From Chloroflexota bacterium (GTDB lineage: Bacteria; Chloroflexota; Dehalococcoidia; Lucifugimonadales; Lucifugimonadaceae), in NCBI GenBank assembly GCA_022564545.1, contig JADFLG010000012.1, positions 1 through 39,918 of the forward strand: 39,918 nt of DNA, read 5' to 3'. Both the position numbers and the translations under genes were made by a program. Below are positions 1,052 to 15,482 of this stretch, piece after piece; the first letter of the stretch is position 1; each line of letters begins with the position of its first letter. A model generated the notes under the pieces. The model saw nothing but the letters and a program-made list of their open reading frames with translations. It was not told where the DNA came from and made no database searches.

Positions 1052-1486
1052 TTGAAATCCATAATTAACACGCTAATCGAGTGGTTGTCGTTCTATCCGT
1101 TCAAAGTAGCTGGCCGGAGCATGGAACCTGCGATTAGCGAGAACACATGGGTCGCGGTGTTCAAAGCCGGGTTCCGAAAGCGCGAGCCGCTGCGCTTTGA
1201 CGTTGTGCGGCTCGAAGATCCTCGTGAGCCGAATCACTGGATACTCAAACGCATTGTTGGGCTGCCCGGCGAAGCAGTTGCGCTAAAGGCCGGAGAGCTA
1301 TTCGTCAACGGAGAGCAGGTCACAGACCCGTACGCATACTGTCCAGATCCTCCAACCGATAACATTGAATGGTGGCCGCGGGACGACGAGTTTGTGGTGC
1401 TGGGTGACAACCGCACCCGGTCGACCGACAGCAGGAAATTCGGTCCTGTAAAACGGTCGAGTATTCGTGGTCGTGTACGGGGTTGA
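1052..1486 (+). CDS. sodX: S26-family signal peptidase, nickel-type SOD maturation protease (SodX)
   Basis: Predicted Ser/Lys peptidase that removes the SodN leader so the nickel hook can form. Motif GRSMEPAI carries the catalytic Ser23, and LKRIVGLPGE carries the general-base Lys66, both typical of S26/LexA-fold leader peptidases. The later VLGDNRTRSTDSRKFGPV box is the conserved GDN...SxDSR region of signal peptidase I. At 144 residues it is a short version with no clear transmembrane anchor; only an amphipathic stretch (residues 4-18) precedes the active site. The start is TTG at 1052, since no ATG or GTG lies upstream of the conserved domain; the ribosome site is weak. Its divergent position next to sodN is the classical sodN-sodX pairing and is the main reason for the specific name. 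Confidence 0.9.
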   Translation: MKSIINTLIEWLSFYPFKVAGRSMEPAISENTWVAVFKAGFRKREPLRFDVVRLEDPREPNHWILKRIVGLPGEAVALKAGELFVNGEQVTDPYAYCPDPPTDNIEWWPRDDEFVVLGDNRTRSTDSRKFGPVKRSSIRGRVRG

Positions 1487-3221: not shown

Positions 3222-4202
3222 CTAGCCCTTCGCCAGCAGCCCTGCCGCTTCGATGGCGCTGTAGGTGATGATCAGACTGGCCCCGGCTCGCTTGATGGAG
3301 GTGAGGACTTCCAGTGTTGCGCGCTCACGATCGAGCCAGCCCGCGTTGCCCGCGGCTGCGATCATCGAGTACTCGCCGCTTACGTTGTAGGCAACAATTG
3401 GCGTGTCGAACCGCATTGACGCCTCTTTGACTACGTCGAGATACGCGAGGGCCGGTTTGACCATGATCAGGTCGGCGCCCTCATCAATGTCTGCCTCGAT
3501 CTCCCGCATGGCTTCCCGGCTCTGGGTCGGGGCCATCTGGTAGTCGCGCCTGTCGCCGAACTGCGGTGTCGAACCGGCAGCTATACGGAACGGTCCGTAG
3601 AACACCGAGGCGTACTTCGCGGAGTAGCCCATAATCGGGGTATTTGTGAACCCGTTGTCGTTCAGAGCAGCACGTATGGCAGCGACCTGTCCGTCCATCA
3701 TTGCCGAGGGTGCCACCATGTCGGCACCGGCCCTTGCGTGTGACACTGCGGTTTCGGCAAGCAGGGGCAGGGTGGCGTCGTTATCTACGACGTTGCCCGT
3801 GACGATTCCGCAGTGACCGTGATCGGTGTATTCGCACAGGCAGACGTCGGTGATTACATACGTTTCTGGGGACGCTTTTTTGATCGCGGCTGCTGCCTGT
3901 TGGACCGCCTCTTCAGGAGAACTGGACCTTGACCCTGTTGCGTCCTTTTCGTCGGGAATGCCAAAGAGCAGGACCGATTTGATGCCAGCATCGAACGCTT
4001 TCTGAGCTTCTTCGACCGCGACATCGACCGACATCTGGTCGATGCCAGGCATTGGTTCGATCGGAGTACGGACTCCCGTGCCGTTCACGACGAACATCGG
4101 GTAGATGAAGTCAGAGGCCGACAGACGAGTTTCGGAGAGCATTTCGCGCAGCGTGGAGTTGCGACGAAGTCGTCTGAGGCGGGAAAACTGGTCGCTGGTC
4201 AT
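3222..4202 (-). CDS. hemB: Porphobilinogen synthase (delta-aminolevulinate dehydratase)
   Basis: Condenses two 5-aminolevulinate molecules to porphobilinogen, the first common step of tetrapyrrole synthesis. The 326-residue length is typical. The zinc-binding site DVCLCEYTDHGHCG supplies Cys121, Cys123 and Cys131, marking the zinc-dependent bacterial type. The two active-site lysines are in GYSAKYASVFYGPFR (Lys196) and MVKPALAYLD (Lys249, the Schiff base). The gene starts with ATG only 7 bp after the stop of the cobA-hemD fusion and is the last tetrapyrrole gene of a minus-strand run that includes hemC and the siroheme genes. It is therefore probably co-transcribed and supplies the same siroheme/heme pathway. 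Confidence 0.97.
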   Translation of the reverse strand: MTSDQFSRLRRLRRNSTLREMLSETRLSASDFIYPMFVVNGTGVRTPIEPMPGIDQMSVDVAVEEAQKAFDAGIKSVLLFGIPDEKDATGSRSSSPEEAVQQAAAAIKKASPETYVITDVCLCEYTDHGHCGIVTGNVVDNDATLPLLAETAVSHARAGADMVAPSAMMDGQVAAIRAALNDNGFTNTPIMGYSAKYASVFYGPFRIAAGSTPQFGDRRDYQMAPTQSREAMREIEADIDEGADLIMVKPALAYLDVVKEASMRFDTPIVAYNVSGEYSMIAAAGNAGWLDRERATLEVLTSIKRAGASLIITYSAIEAAGLLAKG

Positions 4203-4209
4203 GTGCTTA

Positions 4210-5751
4210 TTATGACCCGGCGGCGAGCAGGGTTATGGCGGTGACCAGGCCATCTATCGATTGCTCTCTGGCCCGGACATCGACATTCACTCCGAGCTCG
4301 ATAGCGGTTTCGGCAGTGACCGGGCCGATTATTATGGTTTTACTGGTGTTGATGAGATCGGGGCTGCCATCAAGCAGACCGACGAGGTTTCGGACCGTTG
4401 AAGAACTGGTGAAAGTGGTGAAATCGATGCCCTGTTCGTAGGCGTCACGGGCCAGGTCGCCGGTGTCACCGGGTGTTTCCGTCGAGTAGGCGATCACCTC
4501 ATCGACCTGCGAACCCAGTTCTCTCAAGCCTGTCGCCAGGGTCTCGCCACCAATGTCGGAACGTGGGAACAAAACATGGTCAGGGACGATGCCGTCTCGC
4601 CTGACCAGGTCGACCATAGCGCTGGCAATGTACTGGTCGGGCATGGCATCTGCCGTTATGCCAATAGCCGAAAGCGCCCTGGCGGTGGATGGTCCGACGA
4701 CGCCAAATTTGAGGTGTGCAAATGCCCTGGAGTCGATGCCGGTAGCCCGCATTCGGTCGGTCACGCCGCGGACGGCGTTCGAGCTGGTCAGCATCATCCA
4801 GTCGTAGCGTGAAATGTTGCGCAGCGCTTCGTCAAGCGGTGACGGGTCGCGCACCGGCACGATCTTGATAGCCGGGTATTCGAGCACCTCGGCACCGAGT
4901 TCCTCAAGCTTCTTGACCAACTGGCTGGCCTGGGAGCGCGCCCGTGTGACGAGCACCCGCTTGCCGAACAGCGGCCGGTTATCGAACCAGGCCATCGCGT
5001 CTCGCAGCCCTGCCACTTCGCCGATGACGAGGGCGACCGGTGCGCCGATTCCAGCTTCAACGCCCCTGGAAACGATTTCGCTAACAGGCCCCGTGACGGT
5101 CCGCTGTTTTGCCGTCGTTCCCCATTGAACGAGCGCCGCGGGCCGGTCGTCTGGAACGCCCCGCGAAACAAGGGCGTCGACAATATCGTTCATCCCCTGC
5201 CAGCCCATAACGAATACCAGGGTTCCCGAAAGGCCTGCCAGCGCGTCCCAGTTGATGGTCGAATCGGGTTTGTTCGGGTCTTCGCTGCCGGTAACGACCG
5301 TCAGTGAGGTCGCCATTCCCCTCTGGGTTACCGGAATGCCTGCGTAGGCAGGGGCGGCGATCACGGATGAAACGCCGGGAACGACTTCCCACTCGATGCC
5401 GGCCGCTGCCAGTTCCAGGGCTTCTTCCCCGCCCCTTCCGAAGACGAACGGGTCCCCGCCTTTGAGCCGGCACACCGTCTTCCCACGCAGGCTCAGTTCA
5501 ATGAGCAGGTCGTTGATCTCGGACTGGGTCATGCGGTGGTCGTCACGGCCTTTGCCCGCGTCATACATTTCGGCGTCGGGCCGGGCTTCAGCCAGCAGGC
5601 GCGGCGGGGCAAGGCGGTCGTACACGACAGCGTCGGCGGAGCGCAGGCGTTCGAGCCCTTTGACGGTGATCAGCCCGGGATCACCGGGGCCTGCACCGAC
5701 CAGAAAAACCTTACCCTGGGCGGTCTCCGGGTGGGGCTTGCGTTCTGGCAT
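4210..5751 (-). CDS. cobA-hemD: Fused uroporphyrinogen-III C-methyltransferase / uroporphyrinogen-III synthase
   Basis: A two-domain protein of 513 residues. Residues 14-250 are the SAM-dependent methyltransferase (CobA/SUMT) that makes precorrin-2: GKVFLVGAGPGDPGLITVKG at the N-terminus, then CRLKGGDPFVFGRGGEE and VPGVSSVIAAPAYAGIPVTQRG, which bind SAM and substrate. Residues 264-510 are HemD, beginning KRVLVTRARSQASQLVKKL and with the weakly conserved TFTSSSTVRNL near the end; it closes and inverts ring D to give uroporphyrinogen III. The fusion links two successive steps and is known in several Gram-positive and Chloroflexota lineages. It starts 3 bp after hemC ends and is followed 7 bp later by hemB, so one polycistronic message is very likely. 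Confidence 0.96.
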   Translation of the reverse strand: MPERKPHPETAQGKVFLVGAGPGDPGLITVKGLERLRSADAVVYDRLAPPRLLAEARPDAEMYDAGKGRDDHRMTQSEINDLLIELSLRGKTVCRLKGGDPFVFGRGGEEALELAAAGIEWEVVPGVSSVIAAPAYAGIPVTQRGMATSLTVVTGSEDPNKPDSTINWDALAGLSGTLVFVMGWQGMNDIVDALVSRGVPDDRPAALVQWGTTAKQRTVTGPVSEIVSRGVEAGIGAPVALVIGEVAGLRDAMAWFDNRPLFGKRVLVTRARSQASQLVKKLEELGAEVLEYPAIKIVPVRDPSPLDEALRNISRYDWMMLTSSNAVRGVTDRMRATGIDSRAFAHLKFGVVGPSTARALSAIGITADAMPDQYIASAMVDLVRRDGIVPDHVLFPRSDIGGETLATGLRELGSQVDEVIAYSTETPGDTGDLARDAYEQGIDFTTFTSSSTVRNLVGLLDGSPDLINTSKTIIIGPVTAETAIELGVNVDVRAREQSIDGLVTAITLLAAGS

Positions 5752-5754
5752 CGG

Positions 5755-6714
5755 CTATTCCGGTCCTCCAGATACGAGCTGCCTTGCGCCCTGTCGTACG
5801 AACGATTCACCAAGCCTGGCGCCCAGTTCCGCCGCGTCGGATGCATCGCCGTTCGAACGTTCCCGAATCATTTGCTGACCGTCGATTGACGAGGCAAACG
5901 CCGATATTTCGATCTGGTGTCCGGTTACTCTGGCGTGCGCCGAGACCGAAGATGAACAGCCGCCGCCAACGGCTTGCAGAAAGGCGCGTTCGGCGGTTAC
6001 GGCAAGTCGCGTGTCCCGATCATCCAGTTTCTCAGCCAGCCCAATTACCTGCGTGTCTTGAGCACGTGTTTCGATTGCAAGCGCACCCTGGCCCACGGCT
6101 GCCACAAATTCCATGCATGGCAGGTGCTGGGTGATCCGGTCTTGAAGTCCGAGCCGGTTGAGGCCCGCGGTCGCCAGGATTACGGCATCGGGCCCGCCGC
6201 TGTCGTCGAGTTGTGCAAGCCGGGTGGGCACGTTTCCACGTTGTGGCTCGACAATGAGATCCGGTCGCATTCCCATCACCAGAGCCTTGCGGCGTGCACT
6301 GCCGGTTGCCACACGTGAGCCCGCGGGCAGCGATTCGAGTGATGCGCCGTCGCGGCTCACCAGGGCGTCACGGGGGTCTTCCCGAGGTAGTACGGCGGCC
6401 AGGGCGAAATCACCTGGCAGCGATGACGGCATGTCCTTAAGGCTGTGCACGGCGAGGTCGATCCGTTCGTCCAGGAGAGCTGATTCGAGTTTCTTGACGA
6501 ACACCCCGACGCCGAGCGATGCGATGTCCAGCCTGCGGTCCATGTCGCCTGTGGACTTGATAACGACCACTTCAAATACGATGCCGGGATTCGCTTCCTT
6601 CAGCGCGTTTATCACAAGCCGTGTTTGAATCAGGGCAAGTTTGCTCCCACGCGTCCCTATTTTTATTTTGGCCCGAATGCCAGGGCCATCGGTTCGGACA
6701 ACGGGACTGGTCAT
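5755..6714 (-). CDS. hemC: Hydroxymethylbilane synthase (porphobilinogen deaminase)
   Basis: Polymerises four porphobilinogens to hydroxymethylbilane, the substrate of HemD encoded immediately downstream. The 319-residue protein shows the classic N-terminus IKIGTRGSKLALIQT, the catalytic aspartate in VHSLKDMP (Asp94), and ATGSARRKALV with the arginines that bind the growing chain. The cofactor-attachment loop reads AVGGGCSSSVSAHA, with Cys253 as the dipyrromethane anchor; the residues after the cysteine differ from the usual GGCQVPIG but the cysteine is kept. The gap to the precorrin-2 dehydrogenase gene upstream is 73 bp. The substrate channel hemC to cobA-hemD to methylation is encoded in order. 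Confidence 0.97.
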   Translation of the reverse strand: MTSPVVRTDGPGIRAKIKIGTRGSKLALIQTRLVINALKEANPGIVFEVVVIKSTGDMDRRLDIASLGVGVFVKKLESALLDERIDLAVHSLKDMPSSLPGDFALAAVLPREDPRDALVSRDGASLESLPAGSRVATGSARRKALVMGMRPDLIVEPQRGNVPTRLAQLDDSGGPDAVILATAGLNRLGLQDRITQHLPCMEFVAAVGQGALAIETRAQDTQVIGLAEKLDDRDTRLAVTAERAFLQAVGGGCSSSVSAHARVTGHQIEISAFASSIDGQQMIRERSNGDASDAAELGARLGESFVRQGARQLVSGGPE

Positions 6715-6787: not shown

Positions 6788-7456
6788 TTACGCCCTGTTC
6801 GCGGCGTCGTGTGTTTCGAGTGCCTCGATAAGCATAGCGCGGGCCCTGCCGGTATCACCGCCCTCGAAGACGTCCAGCATTTTGTCGGTGATTGATTGCG
6901 CCCACTGGTCCGGGGTCACCTTGAGTTGTCGCGACCTCTGTTCAACCCGGGCGCCGGCAAGCATCGGTCCCATGTCGGCCCACCGCAGGCACTGGCAATA
7001 GTCGTGATCGCTCATGCGCTCTCGCAGCCTCCGGGCCAGGGCGGGGCTGGTACCGGCAGTTGAAACTGCAACGGTCACGTCGTTCCGCTGGATCAGCGAC
7101 GGTGCGATCCACGTGCACAGTGGGGTAACGTCCATGACGTTGAGCAGGATGTTCCGCTTTTTGGCCTCTTTAGAAATCGCCTCGTTAGTCTCTTGCGACG
7201 CGGTATCAGCGACAATTACGACCCAGCCGCCGGCGAGGTCGCCCGGCTGGTATTTGCGGTCTACCCATTCGATTTTGCCGCTGTCTGCCAGTTTGCGAAG
7301 AGCGTCGGATATTTCGGCGTCCGGGCTGAACAGTTTTACGTTTGCACCGCATTCGAGCAGGTATTTCACCTTGCGTTCGCCCTCGTGCGCGTCGCCTCCG
7401 AATACGATTCCGAGACGGGCTTTCACATCGAGGTAAATACCGTAATAGCGCGGCAC
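6788..7456 (-). CDS. Precorrin-2 dehydrogenase / sirohydrochlorin ferrochelatase-type protein (CysG-N/Met8p family)
   Basis: Oxidises precorrin-2 to sirohydrochlorin with NAD and may also insert iron to give siroheme. The start is GTG at 7456: GGAG lies 6 nt upstream and the protein then opens with PRYYGIYLDVKARLGIV, typical of the family. A longer reading from 7714 would add a Ser/Lys-rich stretch overlapping the next gene. The 222 residues include a nucleotide-binding segment GIVFGGDAHEGERKVKYLL, a divergent version of the usual GGGxVAxRK. NVMDVTPLCTWIAPSL carries the conserved aspartate, and VAVSTAGTSPALARRLRERM binds substrate. It lies between the siroheme decarboxylase gene (55 bp upstream) and hemC, which supports a siroheme role. 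Confidence 0.92.
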   Translation of the reverse strand: MPRYYGIYLDVKARLGIVFGGDAHEGERKVKYLLECGANVKLFSPDAEISDALRKLADSGKIEWVDRKYQPGDLAGGWVVIVADTASQETNEAISKEAKKRNILLNVMDVTPLCTWIAPSLIQRNDVTVAVSTAGTSPALARRLRERMSDHDYCQCLRWADMGPMLAGARVEQRSRQLKVTPDQWAQSITDKMLDVFEGGDTGRARAMLIEALETHDAANRA

Positions 7457-7511: not shown

Positions 7512-8540
7512 TCAGCCGATAGGCTGGAGTTCTTCGATGACGAACTCGTCTTCGACGAAGTAGCGGACACGGGTTTTCTTATATTCGCGCCTGCTGTATA
7601 TGAGCTTGCGTTCTTCCAGGCCGGTCGCCTCGGCGATTTCACGGCCGAACTGCTCGCATTCTTCTTCAGAAACTCCGTGGACCATTGTGAAGTGTGAGTA
7701 CGGCCAGTCGTCATAAGTCGGTCGTTGATAACAGTGGGTTACGGCCGGGTGCTGCGCCATTATGTCGCCGACTTCCTGCGCCCGGTCTTCGGGAACTTTC
7801 CATACGATCATGGCGTTCGACGAGAACCCGGCCCGCCGGTGATGAAGCACGGCGCTGTAACGGCGCATGATCTTCTGTTCGGTGAGTTCGGCTGCTATTT
7901 CAAAGACTCTGGCGACCGACATTCCAAGTTGTTCCGCCATGCTGTCGAACGGCCGGGGAACCAGTTCGAGGTCATCCTGCATTACGCGGATGTAGTCGAT
8001 GGTGTCCTGTGTGACGGTGGGTGCAGGGGTCGTAGGGCTGTCGGGCACATAGGCCTCATTAGCCGCCGATTTGCCTGTCACCATGTCGAAGTTGACGCCG
8101 ATTTTGAAGAACCGGATTGTTGGCAGCAGGCGTGTGGACTCTGCTCCGGTCAACAGGCCGAGTTTTTCAACTTCGTCTTCAAGCGAGCGGCTGGGAGGCA
8201 CCGCGATGGTGAACCAGAGGTTGAAATATCCGTCGCGTTCGTAGTTGTGACTGATTCCCGGATGTCGATTGAGGAGCCGAGCGGCTTTGTCGAGCCTGTC
8301 CTCCGGGAACCGCATTGCCACCAGCATCGACTGGTAGCCGAGCTTTCGAGTGTCGAATATTGCCCCGATCTGGCGAACGACGTTCTTCGACCGCAGAACG
8401 ACAAGGCGGTCTATGACGTCCTGCTCGGTGGTGCCGACCTGGCTGGCGATTTCTCTGAACGGCTCGGCAACAAGCGGGAACGCTGACTGGACCTGGTTCA
8501 TGATCTTGCGGTCAATAGCGTCGAATTCGTCGAAGGTCAT
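7512..8540 (-). CDS. ahbAB: Siroheme decarboxylase, fused AhbA/AhbB-type (NirDL-like, Lrp/AsnC fold)
   Basis: A 342-residue protein made of two homologous Lrp/AsnC-like halves. Residues 1-165 contain SAFPLVAEPFREIA, IGAIFDTRKLGYQSMLVAMRFPE and HNYERDGYFNLWFT. Residues 180-342 contain ELVPRPFDSMAEQLG, MRRYSAVLHHRRAGFSSNAMIVWKVPED, HCYQRPTYDDWPYSHFTMVHG and REYKKTRVRYF. These match the AhbA and AhbB (NirD/G/H/L) subunits that remove two acetate carboxyls from siroheme to give 12,18-didecarboxysiroheme. That compound is the branch point to heme by the alternative pathway or to heme d1. In many organisms the subunits are separate; here one chain carries both. The ATG at 8540 is chosen because the family begins just there; upstream in-frame sequence is an Ala/Pro-rich stretch. 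It lies directly before the precorrin-2 dehydrogenase gene, in pathway logic. Confidence 0.92.
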   Translation of the reverse strand: MTFDEFDAIDRKIMNQVQSAFPLVAEPFREIASQVGTTEQDVIDRLVVLRSKNVVRQIGAIFDTRKLGYQSMLVAMRFPEDRLDKAARLLNRHPGISHNYERDGYFNLWFTIAVPPSRSLEDEVEKLGLLTGAESTRLLPTIRFFKIGVNFDMVTGKSAANEAYVPDSPTTPAPTVTQDTIDYIRVMQDDLELVPRPFDSMAEQLGMSVARVFEIAAELTEQKIMRRYSAVLHHRRAGFSSNAMIVWKVPEDRAQEVGDIMAQHPAVTHCYQRPTYDDWPYSHFTMVHGVSEEECEQFGREIAEATGLEERKLIYSRREYKKTRVRYFVEDEFVIEELQPIG

Positions 8541-8804
8541 GGTATTTGCTTGCTTATCCGCCGGTGCAATTCTAGTAGCCAGTGCGCCGCTCGCCGCAAA
8601 CGCAACCGCCGGCGCAAGCGCAATCCCTGGCGCCGGTTCACCGCCTGGCGAGTGCGTGAGAGAATTAGTGGACGCTCCAAGCATGGATTGTATCGCAGCG
8701 GAAGTTGGTTCTGTGACCGGCAAATGCGCAGAAAACCGTGAGCAGTGTTTCTGCCAGTCATCAGGGACAAATCCTGCCGTTCTGCGGGTGGAATCTGCCA
8801 CTGG

Positions 8805-9785
8805 CTACCGGCTGGCAGACCAGATTTCGACCGCCTGGCGTGATGTGAACTCTGGCTTCCACCCGAGAGCGACCAAAGCTCTTTCGGTCGAGGCCAGCCA
8901 CGGGTAGGTGATCAGGGCAAGCCCGGGACCGGGCGACTTGTTCTGGAGACGGAGCGCCCAGCCTGCACTGATGACCGACTTAAGGAGCGCAAGTGGGACC
9001 GGAATTCTTGTCGCTCCAGAAATACGTGCGAGTTCACTCCACCTGACGGTCCCCTCACCTGTGATGTTGAAAAGCCCGGCGGCGTTTTCGGCCTGCAGCA
9101 CCAGGACGATCGCAGCCAGAAGGTCGTCCAGGTGGATGAACTGCATATCGGGATCATGGCCCATCGGCACGGGCAGGAATTTCATTCCAAGCGATTCGGA
9201 AATGAAGTTCGACGCGCCTGGCGACATTACGGGGCAGGCGCGCAATACTGTGATTTTCACTCCGTCTGGCTCTGGATGATCGTTGGCGAACTGAGAAATA
9301 ATTCGTTCGGTTTCCACTTTGTGCCGCGAGTACTGAAAGCCGGGCGTCGGCAGGGTTCGGTCCGATTCACGAAACGGCCTGTTGTTGCTCGCGCTGGCGC
9401 CGTAGACCGTTGTGCTGCTCAGGTAGACGAAACGCTTGACGCCGGTTTCGGCAATCGCTTCGAGCAGTTGCCCGGTCGCCTCGACGTTTATCGAGTGTGC
9501 GTATGCCTCATCGCGGTGTGTCTGGAGCAGGAACACAAGGTGGATTACGGTATTGACGCTGTGTTCGCTAATGACCGCAGCGAGCGGCTCGCGTATATCT
9601 TGATCTATCGTGACCAGTTTTTTCGAGGCGTGCCGATCAAGCGCCTGGCGGTATGTCCTGGAGTGGGCCAGGTCGAGGGAAACGACCAGGTCGATCTCTT
9701 TCAGGCCCAGCAGTTTCGCGACCAGCGCCGCACCGATGTAGCCGGCGCCCCCGGTTACGAGAACGCGGGCGGGGCCTTCAGGCAC
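8805..9785 (-). CDS. NAD-dependent epimerase/dehydratase (extended SDR)
   Basis: A 326-residue Rossmann-fold protein of the extended short-chain dehydrogenase family. The N-terminal VLVTGGAGYIGAALV is the dinucleotide motif GxxGxxG. The active site is YLSSTTVYGAS (Ser around 124) with Y152-SRH-K156. The sequence HLDDLLAAIVLVLQ followed by GLFNITGEGTVRWSELARISG is typical of UDP-sugar epimerase-like members that use a nucleoside-sugar or isoprenoid-linked substrate; the exact substrate cannot be read. The start is GTG at 9785, overlapping by 8 bp the end of a small conserved gene upstream, so the two are probably translationally coupled. A 264-bp gap separates it from the siroheme decarboxylase gene. 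Confidence 0.88.
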   Translation of the reverse strand: MPEGPARVLVTGGAGYIGAALVAKLLGLKEIDLVVSLDLAHSRTYRQALDRHASKKLVTIDQDIREPLAAVISEHSVNTVIHLVFLLQTHRDEAYAHSINVEATGQLLEAIAETGVKRFVYLSSTTVYGASASNNRPFRESDRTLPTPGFQYSRHKVETERIISQFANDHPEPDGVKITVLRACPVMSPGASNFISESLGMKFLPVPMGHDPDMQFIHLDDLLAAIVLVLQAENAAGLFNITGEGTVRWSELARISGATRIPVPLALLKSVISAGWALRLQNKSPGPGLALITYPWLASTERALVALGWKPEFTSRQAVEIWSASR

Positions 9786-11908: not shown

Positions 11909-12158
11909 GTCGAGTTCCCCATCCCGCTGATTTGACGAAATTATCTTGATTATCGCCTTGCGAGAACCGGAGCGGGTTTTCGCTCATCGCCTGTGAGTGG
12001 CGCTGTGCCGTTTCGGCAGTGTGACCGCCATTGTGCGGCGCGGGCATGACGTTTTCCAGTCTGATCAGCGATAAGCCTGGTTCGATGTGATGCGATGGCA
12101 ATATGTCGAAGGTGAGCAACGATTCGGCGTCGAATGGGGCAGGTATCGGGATCTTCAT
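11895..12158 (-). CDS. Possible small protein of unknown function between hpnE and the sugar kinase
   Basis: An 87-residue reading frame whose ATG overlaps the hpnE stop as ATGA and whose end overlaps the kinase start by 14 bp. That tight fit suggests translational coupling. The sequence (starting MKIPIPAPFDAESLLTFDIL, with a Gln/His/Asn-rich second half) has no signal peptide, membrane segment or motif I recognise. A second frame (11950-12183) overlaps it and is less well placed. It may be a genuine small gene, a decayed one, or chance, so it is kept with low confidence because of the neat junctions. Confidence 0.35.
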   Translation of the reverse strand: MKIPIPAPFDAESLLTFDILPSHHIEPGLSLIRLENVMPAPHNGGHTAETAQRHSQAMSENPLRFSQGDNQDNFVKSAGWGTRRGAT

Positions 12159-13543
12159 TGCCCATCTGCCCCCAATCTGGCACCCGCGCCCATGTCTTCG
12201 GCGATGTATTCCGCGGCGAGGTTGCCGCTGCGGACCGCCGACTCCATTGTTGAGGGCCAGCCGGTGTCGGTCCAGTCTCCAGCGAGGTAGAAGCCGGGCA
12301 GGGGAGTCCTCTGGGACAACCGGGATTTTTGTGATCCGGGGACTACACGGAACGTGGCCTCAAGCATTTTTACGACCGTGAATTTATGTATTTTTGCTCT
12401 TTGCGCCTCCGGGAACACCCGCGCCATTTCGGCGGTGAATATCGCGCGGAGCTCCTGTTTGGAGCGGTCTTTCCAGTCCCACGCCCCGCTCAACGAGATG
12501 ACGATGTGCTGACCACCGCCATCATCCCTCGACTTCAGGTCGGTGTCGTTGAACACCCACTGTAGCGGGCTGTCGAGCACGGCCACGTATTTTTCCCGCA
12601 ACACTGGCCGGTCGTACCAGATGTGAACAGCCACGATAGGGGCGGTTTTGATGGATTCTGCGGGAGTGAAGAAATCGTCCGGACTGTCAGGTCCTCCGGG
12701 TACTTTGGGAAGCAGCGGCGTCATTGCGGCTGCGGGGACACTTGATATTACTGCCTCTCCGTCGATGGATTCACCGCCAGTTGTCAGTACGCCCGTGATT
12801 CTGGCGTCGTCGATCTTCAGTGACGCTACATCGACACCGGTCCGTATCTCGCCACCGTGCAGTTCGATGAATTGGCGGGCGTTATCGCCGGCCAGCGTCG
12901 AAAGCCCGACCAGCGGAATGCCCATTGCCGGGTTTCGCGCCGGTCCGAGCAGGGCGATTTTAAAAAGCATGATGCCGGTATAGGCGCTGACGACCGAAAT
13001 GTTGTCGTTGAGGGAGGGCAGAATGATGAGGTTCCAGAAATTCTGGATGGTTTCGTCGTTCTGTCCGTGGTCTCGCAGCCAGTCATCGAAGGTCACGTGG
13101 TCGTGGACTGAGTCGGGATTCAGGCGGGTGAGCCTGATGCTCAGAAGTCCCCACAGAATCCGCATCTTGCCTCTGAGTCCCACATGTCTGTAACCGAGCA
13201 GGGCGGAAAGGTTTGCAAGTGGGCCCGGGAGTTTTCGCGCCCGCAGCTGGCTGAGGCGTCCGTGTTTCAGCACCGGCAGGGCCATGCGCTTTTCGAGCCT
13301 GACCTGGTCCCAGGCGCCGATGTCCCTTATGTATTGCTGGAACTGAACGCATGCTCCAACGAAAACATGCTGGCCATTGTCGATTTCGGCTCCGGTCTCT
13401 CTATCGGTAAACGAATAGGCCCGGCCACCGAGAAACGGGCGTTTCTCCAGGACGATCGGCTTCAGGCCCAGTTGAATCAGGCGTACCGAGGCGGCAAGCC
13501 CGGCGATACCGCCGCCTATGACGACTACGGTCCTTGTTGCCAT
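12155..13543 (-). CDS. hpnE: Hydroxysqualene dehydroxylase (squalene-associated FAD-dependent desaturase)
   Basis: A 462-residue flavoprotein of the phytoene desaturase/amine oxidase family. The N-terminal VVVIGGGIAGLAASVRLIQLG binds FAD, followed by LEKRPFLGGRAYSFTDRETG and IDNGQHVFVGAC, characteristic of HpnE. The C-terminal FYLAGDWTDTGWPSTMESAVRSGNLAAEYI is the second FAD motif. HpnE reduces hydroxysqualene to squalene, the last step of the HpnC-HpnD-HpnE route that replaces eukaryote-like squalene synthase. It starts 3 bp after the hpnD stop, and the order hpnC-hpnD-hpnE equals the order of the reactions. A carotenoid desaturase role is possible for this family, but the paired HpnC and HpnD make squalene the better reading. 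Confidence 0.92.
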   Translation of the reverse strand: MATRTVVVIGGGIAGLAASVRLIQLGLKPIVLEKRPFLGGRAYSFTDRETGAEIDNGQHVFVGACVQFQQYIRDIGAWDQVRLEKRMALPVLKHGRLSQLRARKLPGPLANLSALLGYRHVGLRGKMRILWGLLSIRLTRLNPDSVHDHVTFDDWLRDHGQNDETIQNFWNLIILPSLNDNISVVSAYTGIMLFKIALLGPARNPAMGIPLVGLSTLAGDNARQFIELHGGEIRTGVDVASLKIDDARITGVLTTGGESIDGEAVISSVPAAAMTPLLPKVPGGPDSPDDFFTPAESIKTAPIVAVHIWYDRPVLREKYVAVLDSPLQWVFNDTDLKSRDDGGGQHIVISLSGAWDWKDRSKQELRAIFTAEMARVFPEAQRAKIHKFTVVKMLEATFRVVPGSQKSRLSQRTPLPGFYLAGDWTDTGWPSTMESAVRSGNLAAEYIAEDMGAGARLGADGQ

Positions 13544-13546
13544 TGG

Positions 13547-14476
13547 TTACAGGAACCTGAACCCACGACCGCGGAGCCAGATAATTGCCAGCAGCCGGAA
13601 CTTCTGGAATTTTGAAAGCCCGACGCGGTTGTTCAGCACGTCGTAGTCGTTCTTTTCGATCTGGTCCAGCAGAGTTTGATAGACGCTGGTCATTGTTTGC
13701 GGGCAGGACCTGGACTGCCTGTCGAGGAGGGGGAAGAGACGAACGCCTGACGCGAGGTATTTTCGGGCCCGCTCGACCTGGAACCTCATAAACCGCCTGA
13801 ACTCGGGTGTGACCCGCTTGTTGCGAAGGTCGTCGACCGAAACACCGTATTCAGCCAACTCGTCGGCGGGCAGGTAGACCCGCCCGTTTTCCAGGTCTTC
13901 GGTAATGTCACGGAGGATGTTTGTCAGCTGCAGGGCGATGCCGAGATCGGTCGCGTATTTTACTGCCCGCTCGTCTTCGTACCCGAACACTTCGATGAGG
14001 GCCAGCCCTGTCGCACTGGCGACGAGTTTGCAGTATTTGACCAGGTCGTCGAACGTTTCGTACTTCGCACCGTCGAGGTCCATGAGGCAGCCGTCAAGTA
14101 CATCGAGCAGGTGTCTCTGGTCGATCGGGTAACGGTGCAGCGTGTCGCCAAGTGCGAGCCACATATCGCCATCGGCCCTGCCGTCGTAGGCATCGGCAAG
14201 TTTGACTCGCAACGAATCCAGCGCTTCCCCGGCGTCGTCGCCATATTCGCCATTATCGACTATGTCGTCTGCCAGCCGACAGAACGCGTAGCCAGCGTAG
14301 ACGGAATTTCTTTTGGCCGGCGGCAGGGTGACGAACGCATAGTAAAAGTTGGACGAGGCAGCTTTAGTGGCATCTGCCACCGCTCTGTAGGCGTGTGCGA
14401 TCTGCTCGGGTGTGGCGCCTGCCACTGGTATTACCGTTGTTCCCGTCGTTCCTGGCGTGGTGTTCATGGCGTTCAT
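13547..14476 (-). CDS. hpnD: Presqualene diphosphate synthase (HpnD)
   Basis: A trans-isoprenyl diphosphate synthase of the squalene/phytoene synthase family that condenses two farnesyl diphosphates to presqualene diphosphate. Both aspartate motifs are present: CRLADDIVDNGE (DDIVD), and LTNILRDITEDLENGRVYLP (DITED), which bind magnesium-diphosphate. The FQVERARKYLASGVRLFP segment is also typical. The start is uncertain among GTG 14485, ATG 14476 and ATG 14467, none with a good ribosome site; ATG 14476 is given. The gene begins within a few bases of the hpnC stop and ends 3 bp before hpnE, so it is read by tight coupling. Phytoene synthase is the main alternative. Confidence 0.92.
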   Translation of the reverse strand: MNAMNTTPGTTGTTVIPVAGATPEQIAHAYRAVADATKAASSNFYYAFVTLPPAKRNSVYAGYAFCRLADDIVDNGEYGDDAGEALDSLRVKLADAYDGRADGDMWLALGDTLHRYPIDQRHLLDVLDGCLMDLDGAKYETFDDLVKYCKLVASATGLALIEVFGYEDERAVKYATDLGIALQLTNILRDITEDLENGRVYLPADELAEYGVSVDDLRNKRVTPEFRRFMRFQVERARKYLASGVRLFPLLDRQSRSCPQTMTSVYQTLLDQIEKNDYDVLNNRVGLSKFQKFRLLAIIWLRGRGFRFL

Positions 14477-14486
14477 TTTTGGCACG

Positions 14487-15482
14487 TCAGTTGCCGGGCC
14501 TTGCTGAAGACTTGAAGGCGCTTGCCGGTATGAGGCTCAACCTGAGCCTTGATCGCAGCCATGTTGCAGCCAGGATTTTCGTCTTGTCGAGCTTTGACAG
14601 CGTTGGCCGAGTGCTCAAAACATCGTAGTCCTGGCGTTCGATCGCCTGCAGGACAGCAAGCCCTCCGCGGGTGAATAACGCGAGGTCGGACCCGAGGGAA
14701 CGTTCGAGGTGATCGCCCAGCGGGTGTCCGGCGACGAACAGTTTTCTCGCACGGTCGACCTGAAACCGCATTAGCGCCCTGAACCGGTCATCGGTTTTGC
14801 CTTCGGAAATCTGCTCTTCCGAAACCCCGAACCGGTCGAGGTCTTCAAGTGGAATGTAGATCCGGCCGATTTCGTAATCACGTTTTACGTCCTGCCAGAA
14901 GTTTGTGAGCTGCAGGGCAGTGCAAATGTGATCGGACATTTCCTGCAGGCCGGGTTCTCTAACGCCACCCAGGTAAAGGACCAGGCGCCCGACCGGATTT
15001 GCTGAATAGGTGCAGTAGTCGATCAGGTCGTCGTACGTTTCGTGCCGAATGATCTGTTGATCGCGTCTGTTGGCTTCAATCAGGCGCATTAGCGGGTCGG
15101 CCGGGATATCGAATATTCGAATGGTTTCGGATAGCGCTACGAAATACGGGTGTGTTGGAATTGTGTTGCTTCGCGAATCAGGCCTGCCGGAATCCGGGTA
15201 GCAGGCGTCGAGTTGTTGCCCCCACAGATCGAGCAATGCCAGCCTGTCGCCGTCAGCCTCGTCACCGAGGTCGTCGACCCCGCGCGAAAAGGCGTATATC
15301 GAGTAGAAGTGGCGGCGCAGACGTTTTGGGAGGAGACGAGAACCGACGCTGAAGTTCTCGTAGTGGGTCCGGGCCAGGTCTTCGCACAGGGCGAACGCTG
15401 CGTCCAGGTAATCTGGCGAGTCGGGCCCGACTTCCATGCTCGGGGCCGGGAGCTCGACAGCCGTTGTAGCTGACTGGGTCAT
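14487..15482 (-). CDS. hpnC: Hydroxysqualene synthase (HpnC)
   Basis: A 331-residue member of the squalene/phytoene synthase family, paralogous to the HpnD encoded just downstream. The aspartate motifs are FSRGVDDLGDE and LTNFWQDVKRDYEIGRIYIP, with YSIYAFSRGVDDLGDEADGD placing the first in the usual helix. HpnC converts presqualene diphosphate to hydroxysqualene. The N-terminus has about 25 extra residues (rich in Ala, Thr and Pro) before HYENFSVGSRLLPKRLRRHFYSIYAF, which is the usual start of the domain. A 49-bp gap separates it from the YjbQ-family gene upstream. Confidence 0.92.
   Translation of the reverse strand: MTQSATTAVELPAPSMEVGPDSPDYLDAAFALCEDLARTHYENFSVGSRLLPKRLRRHFYSIYAFSRGVDDLGDEADGDRLALLDLWGQQLDACYPDSGRPDSRSNTIPTHPYFVALSETIRIFDIPADPLMRLIEANRRDQQIIRHETYDDLIDYCTYSANPVGRLVLYLGGVREPGLQEMSDHICTALQLTNFWQDVKRDYEIGRIYIPLEDLDRFGVSEEQISEGKTDDRFRALMRFQVDRARKLFVAGHPLGDHLERSLGSDLALFTRGGLAVLQAIERQDYDVLSTRPTLSKLDKTKILAATWLRSRLRLSLIPASAFKSSARPGN

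Follow-up and report, generated by a model that had tools for sequence, protein, structure and literature searches.

The gene ahbAB, located on the minus strand at positions 7512..8540 of a 39,918-nucleotide stretch of Chloroflexota DNA (hereafter the window), encodes a protein of 342 aa that HMM scans, PDB searches, an alignment and a structural model identify as a single-chain siroheme decarboxylase composed of an AhbA half and an AhbB half. We consider it probable, though well short of certain, that this protein is a functional decarboxylase inherited from an ancestral Ahb pathway and left stranded when AhbC and AhbD were lost, and that the organism obtains its heme in another way. This reading builds on the identity of the gene and its operon, on an assembly that contains no classical heme genes, and on AhbC and AhbD genes that are present in some relatives and decayed in others. 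The genome to which the window belongs (G000; 93.3% complete, 195 contigs) is a SAR202-type Chloroflexota, and named relatives retrieved with the AhbAB alignment belong to Chloroflexi/Dehalococcoidia, several of them carrying the label SAR202 cluster. For comparison 40 SAR202-order genomes were used, 19 of which belong to the genus of the window, its own genome included.

The minus-strand open frame spans 7512-8801 with a GTG start, but all homologues from the genus start with MPFDEFD or MTFDEFD in the homologue alignment, placing the start at the ATG at 8540. In scans of the long frame the AhbA model NF040708 scored 265.8 bits (residues 97-240) and the AhbB model NF040707 253 bits (residues 271-414), and both halves exceeded the NCBI curated cut-offs for siroheme decarboxylase domains of 140 and 125 bits, respectively. 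The AhbA half corresponds approximately to residues 10-153 and the AhbB half to residues 184-327 of the 342-aa protein. Pfam recognised two AsnC_trans_reg2 domains and two NirDL-like HTH stretches. An HXYXR motif is found in both halves (HNYER at 98-102 and HCYQR at 269-273), and its H, Y and R were invariant in both halves across an alignment of 22 AhbAB sequences; Palmer et al. (PMC4145669) placed this motif in the active site. The AlphaFold model, built from 22 relatives, reached a pLDDT of 88.5 and shows two paired Lrp/AsnC-like domains, with 4ch7 and 4czc, and also 4czd, as top structural matches in the PDB. A search for phage matches to AhbAB found none. Altogether, AhbAB is an active-looking decarboxylase, its activity being predicted from these features. 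A preliminary description of the window had assigned both halves to one gene, and the coordinates it gave turned out to be exact.

Among solved structures, the closest in sequence is 4ch7, the NirDL protein of Hydrogenobacter (E 7.5e-70). Like AhbAB, NirDL of Hydrogenobacter thermophilus (4ch7, 4czc) is a single chain with two Lrp/AsnC halves and both HXYXR motifs; it can be aligned to residues 99-418 of the long frame and was the top structural match as well. The AhbA and AhbB chains of Desulfovibrio desulfuricans (4czd, 4un1; PMC4145669) each match one half (E about 1e-30 and 2e-29, respectively) and share the HXYXR motif and the context of siroheme biosynthesis, but they are two separate chains, and the D. 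desulfuricans-type pathway is finished by AhbC and AhbD, neither of which was found in the window genome. The fusion of AhbA and AhbB, emphasised in the preliminary description, was confirmed. However, it is not new and therefore less remarkable, because single-chain AhbAB proteins occur in Thaumarchaeota, Rubrobacter and many SAR202 genomes; those of Thaumarchaeota and Rubrobacter are 46-54% identical to AhbAB and lie in gene neighbourhoods that differ from that of the window.

Since the Lrp/AsnC family fold comes with HTH domains, and AhbA/B of D. vulgaris and M. barkeri copurify with heme (PMC4145669), AhbAB might have come to regulate transcription of its own operon in response to siroheme or heme, acting through its Lrp/AsnC-type HTH halves. 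The HXYXR motif kept in both halves and scores far above the enzyme cut-offs make this very unlikely. Even less credible is a function in supplying a cytochrome cd1 nitrite reductase with heme d1. NirDL, a protein of the same type, belongs to a heme d1 context, and the first radical-SAM protein of the relative G013 scored 470.6 bits on NirJ1 against 457 bits on AhbC. Nevertheless, the window genome differs from that context in having no cytochrome cd1 gene: no match to the cytochrome cd1 family (PF02239: NirS, NirF, NirN) was detected, the 40 relatives yielded only weak propeller matches in 6/40, and the second radical-SAM protein of the relatives is AhbD-like. Because cytochrome cd1 family proteins are missing, a heme d1 role was rejected, and with no NirJ in the window genome either, the earlier suggestion of heme d1 synthesis in this host was not borne out.

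AhbAB heads a run of genes that all lie on the minus strand. It is followed by a precorrin-2 dehydrogenase of the siroheme synthase N-terminal type (6788..7456, 222 aa, probably starting with GTG at 7456; TIGR01470 110 bits, PF13241, PF14824), hemC for hydroxymethylbilane synthase (5755..6714; TIGR00212, 313 bits), a fused cobA-hemD for uroporphyrinogen-III C-methyltransferase and uroporphyrinogen-III synthase (4210..5751; TIGR01469 278 bits, PF02602 190.6 bits) and hemB for porphobilinogen synthase (3222..4202; NF006762, 473.6 bits). This order is kept across SAR202 genomes, with the precorrin-2 dehydrogenase gene beside ahbAB in relatives; the enzyme possibly inserts iron too. The four siroheme genes of a run described as complete were recovered by HMM, but hemA/hemL is absent from it, whereas in other SAR202 genomes hemA often lies within the corresponding run. 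Directly upstream of ahbAB an NAD-dependent epimerase/dehydratase is encoded (8805..9785, minus strand; PF01370). In several SAR202 genomes a homologue (40-44%) is likewise found ahead of ahbAB; the gene is unmatched in close genus members, and it appears only weakly linked and, as far as known, outside the pathway. The window genome also encodes a NIR_SIR protein (nitrite/sulfite reductase type), a family that uses siroheme.

In G037, a 464-aa frame (L079, 10829-12220) begins like a precorrin-2 dehydrogenase and has the match to the window enzyme in its second half, perhaps reflecting a duplicated domain. The NiSOD previously noted in the window is present at 475-918 on the minus strand; near it and divergently oriented lies a gene for a signal peptidase S26-type protein (1052-1486, plus strand).

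A heme-copper oxidase is encoded in 40/40 genomes. Its subunit I (COX1) requires heme, and the COX1 of the window genome is close to aa3-type structures. The idea of an oxygen-exposed host is therefore backed by an oxygen-reducing oxidase, but it is less remarkable than assumed, as Haloferax volcanii grows aerobically and has an Ahb pathway (PMC5746218).

Ferrochelatase (PF00762) was found neither in the window genome nor in the other 18 genomes of the genus. It is encoded by five relatives from outside the genus; AhbAB occurs in 0/5 of these, so that the two proteins co-occur in 0/40 genomes (p about 0.009, ignoring kinship). The sole URO-D protein of the window genome (214 bits) was considered as a HemE candidate and rejected: in the family scan it was MtaA-like with 252.6 bits against 66 bits on the hemE model, and its gene adjoins those of a corrinoid protein and a homocysteine methyltransferase, as expected for an MtaA/CmuA-type methyltransferase. 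By comparison, a URO-D protein of 406 bits in G027 adjoins ferrochelatase and is probably a real HemE; relatives' URO-D matches scoring like that of the window genome were assumed to be MtaA/CmuA-type as well. Because the assembly contains no ferrochelatase and no true HemE, the search proposed earlier for these proteins came out negative, and neither a classical nor a coproporphyrin heme route, both of which depend on them, is supported in the window genome. The methyltransferase belongs to a cluster (L063, 4805-10630, on contig C151 of G000) of a homocysteine methyltransferase, the MtaA/CmuA-type methyltransferase, a corrinoid protein and an AcsV/RamA-like activator, which suggests corrinoid-dependent demethylation.

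An AhbC/NirJ1-like radical-SAM gene with, immediately after it, a gene of the TIGR04053 family, whose next best match is AhbD, was detected in 8/40 genomes: G005, G007, G012, G013 and G014 within the genus and G021, G025 and G036 outside it. In the four genomes that were scanned (G013, G021, G025, G036) AhbC scores ranged over 457-603 bits and TIGR04053 scores over 432-455 bits. The curated cut-offs of AhbC and AhbD are not reached, and the proteins are named AhbC-like and AhbD-like for their best match, their pairing, their occurrence together with AhbAB and the missing cd1. By best match, all eight pair carriers hold the full set of AhbAB, AhbC-like and AhbD-like proteins, and the pair without AhbAB was seen in 0 of the 40 genomes. 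Its location differs: in G036 the pair is situated within the ahbAB run, between hemC and hemA, and in the genus of the window it occupies a separate conserved locus flanked by genes for an MFS transporter and DinB. G013, which is on a closed contig, and G036 have the same ahbAB operon as the window, with AhbAB 79% and 54% identical, respectively, and keep the AhbC-like and AhbD-like genes, whereas the window genome shows none. Because eight relatives carry the pair, heme synthesis by way of siroheme is probably an ancestral trait of this SAR202 group. The earlier proposal of heme made through siroheme is thus supported for relatives with AhbC-like and AhbD-like genes but not for the window organism.

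The ten radical-SAM matches of the window genome were MoaA, HemW, MiaB, MtaB, LipA, a sulfatase maturase, MqnE, MqnC, a Tes/TrsS-like protein and RlmN. AhbC, AhbD and NirJ were not among them, and scans with the AhbC and AhbD models added nothing; the search of the remaining genome for these partners, suggested beforehand, thus ended without a candidate in an assembly that is 93.3% complete. One of the ten (L008, 1132-2676 on contig C118 of G000) combines the radical-SAM domain with an HMPTM zinc ribbon and matched best to the models of TrsS and of the tetraether lipid synthase Tes, below the cut-offs of both.

The flanking genes were then used to locate the AhbC/AhbD site in other genomes. 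In the window genome its two flanks are on separate contigs. C122 ends 186 bases past the second DinB gene, near the expected AhbD start, and contains no AhbD-like sequence there; on C150, succinate dehydrogenase-like genes precede AspA in the place of MFS and AhbC. Among the genus members the site is intact in G005, G007, G012, G013 and G014. In G001 a mid-contig pseudogene fuses AhbC 2-55 to AhbD 286-402 and contains several stops and a frameshift, AhbD of G009 is truncated and contains a stop, that of G015 survives as a frameshifted remnant, and in G011 a deletion remnant is found close to the end of a contig. Clean deletions, with flanking genes adjoining without the pair, were found in G006, G017 and G018, and G004 has lost the pair and retains no more than a remnant of the MFS gene. 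Because these breakpoints differ between genomes, they argue for several separate losses of AhbC/D. A tree of operon proteins gave 4 label changes for AhbC/D, 2 of which are forced by well-supported branches, and leaves the number of losses unsettled.

The Ahb pathway could still be complete in the window organism if AhbC and AhbD lay in the unassembled 7% or elsewhere, and heme b would then be made from siroheme as proposed for G013 and G036. An assembly of 195 contigs that is 93.3% complete, the end of C122 near the site, the intact operon and AhbAB, and the presence of an oxidase would all agree with this. It is nonetheless rather unlikely, given that the 186 bases after the second DinB gene contain no AhbD, that AspA is preceded by succinate dehydrogenase genes, and that the two nearest relatives, G015 and G017, are also without an intact pair (a frameshifted AhbD remnant and a clean deletion, respectively). 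Moreover, intact AhbC is missing in 15/23 AhbAB genomes, compared with 2.3 expected from incompleteness on the assumption that genomes are independent and that genes go missing at random (P 7e-11). On this group-wide count assembly gaps were rejected as the general cause of the missing AhbC, but not as the cause in the single genome. For the window genome itself, the empty flanks support loss or rearrangement of AhbC/D, a real loss being the likely reading of a 93.3% complete assembly.

Returning to loss of AhbC/D with AhbAB left behind, the two Lrp/AsnC-like halves would fold together like the AhbA/AhbB heterodimer, and AhbAB would decarboxylate the acetate groups of siroheme at C12 and C18, yielding 12,18-didecarboxysiroheme. 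Ancestrally, this reaction was probably the committed step into heme b synthesis from siroheme, the first of the route, continued by the AhbC-like and then by the AhbD-like (TIGR04053) radical-SAM enzyme. In the window organism, where AhbC/D appear lost, the known route would halt at didecarboxysiroheme. The rest of the run would still be required to provide siroheme for the NIR_SIR protein, and the heme of the oxidase would probably be taken up from outside the cell. Heme auxotrophy was reported in surveys of Chloroflexota (PMC11139205), and surface SAR202, unlike deep SAR202, were reported to lack heme synthesis (PMC11245477); a report on Ahb genes of SAR202 was not found in the literature searched. 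What counts against this explanation is that AhbAB is intact, although one would expect it to decay in a heme auxotroph.

The retention of AhbAB in 15 genomes without intact AhbC, all 15 of which encode COX1 and so need heme, may instead mean that AhbAB feeds an unrecognised set of heme-making enzymes, or that didecarboxysiroheme is itself a cofactor or signal, with selection keeping AhbAB. Pairwise dN/dS of AhbAB was 0.06-0.09 between genomes without AhbC/D, compared with 0.035-0.04 between pair carriers, and no higher in the former than for cobA-hemD (0.07-0.09), so that purifying selection equals that on the neighbouring siroheme genes. We did not accept these ratios as proof that AhbAB works without AhbC/D, because several losses happened recently and the loci differ in dS; the remnant of G009, for example, has barely diverged (dN 0.022), too recently lost for selection on AhbAB to inform. 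The sole useful contrast is G001, where the AhbC/D remnants have decayed (dN about 0.19, 5 stops in about 118 codons) while AhbAB, with dN about 0.05 and free of stops, seems still constrained. AhbAB without intact AhbC is also found in other genera (G020, G030 and G031; 92-98% complete). On the other hand, inspection by eye of the ahbAB neighbourhoods in AhbC/D-less genera revealed no recognisable partner gene, and AhbAB was not found in the genus members G002, G003, G008, G010 and G016. We regard such an alternative fate of didecarboxysiroheme as improbable; in other genomes AhbAB is possibly a relic being lost.

Recognised genes do not account for the heme of the window organism, nor for that of 27/40 genomes in which COX1 is present while ferrochelatase and intact AhbC are both missing. 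SAR202 bacteria abound in the ocean, and the genomes examined here encode oxygen respiration. If the group makes heme through siroheme, the route extends beyond archaea and sulfate reducers. That AhbC/D decayed repeatedly while the decarboxylase remained intact raises the question of whether heme is obtained from neighbours or made by unknown finishing enzymes, and surveys of pathway completeness that call such cells heme auxotrophs may miscount the Ahb branch.

Two further observations concern other genes. Enzymes of the mandelate racemase/enolase superfamily gave 34 to 84 first-look candidates per genome in the genus. At 12155-15482 on the minus strand of the window, hpnE (HpnE model, 378 bits) and two adjacent squalene/phytoene synthase-like genes look like a squalene-forming set, which adjoins the heme run in many relatives.
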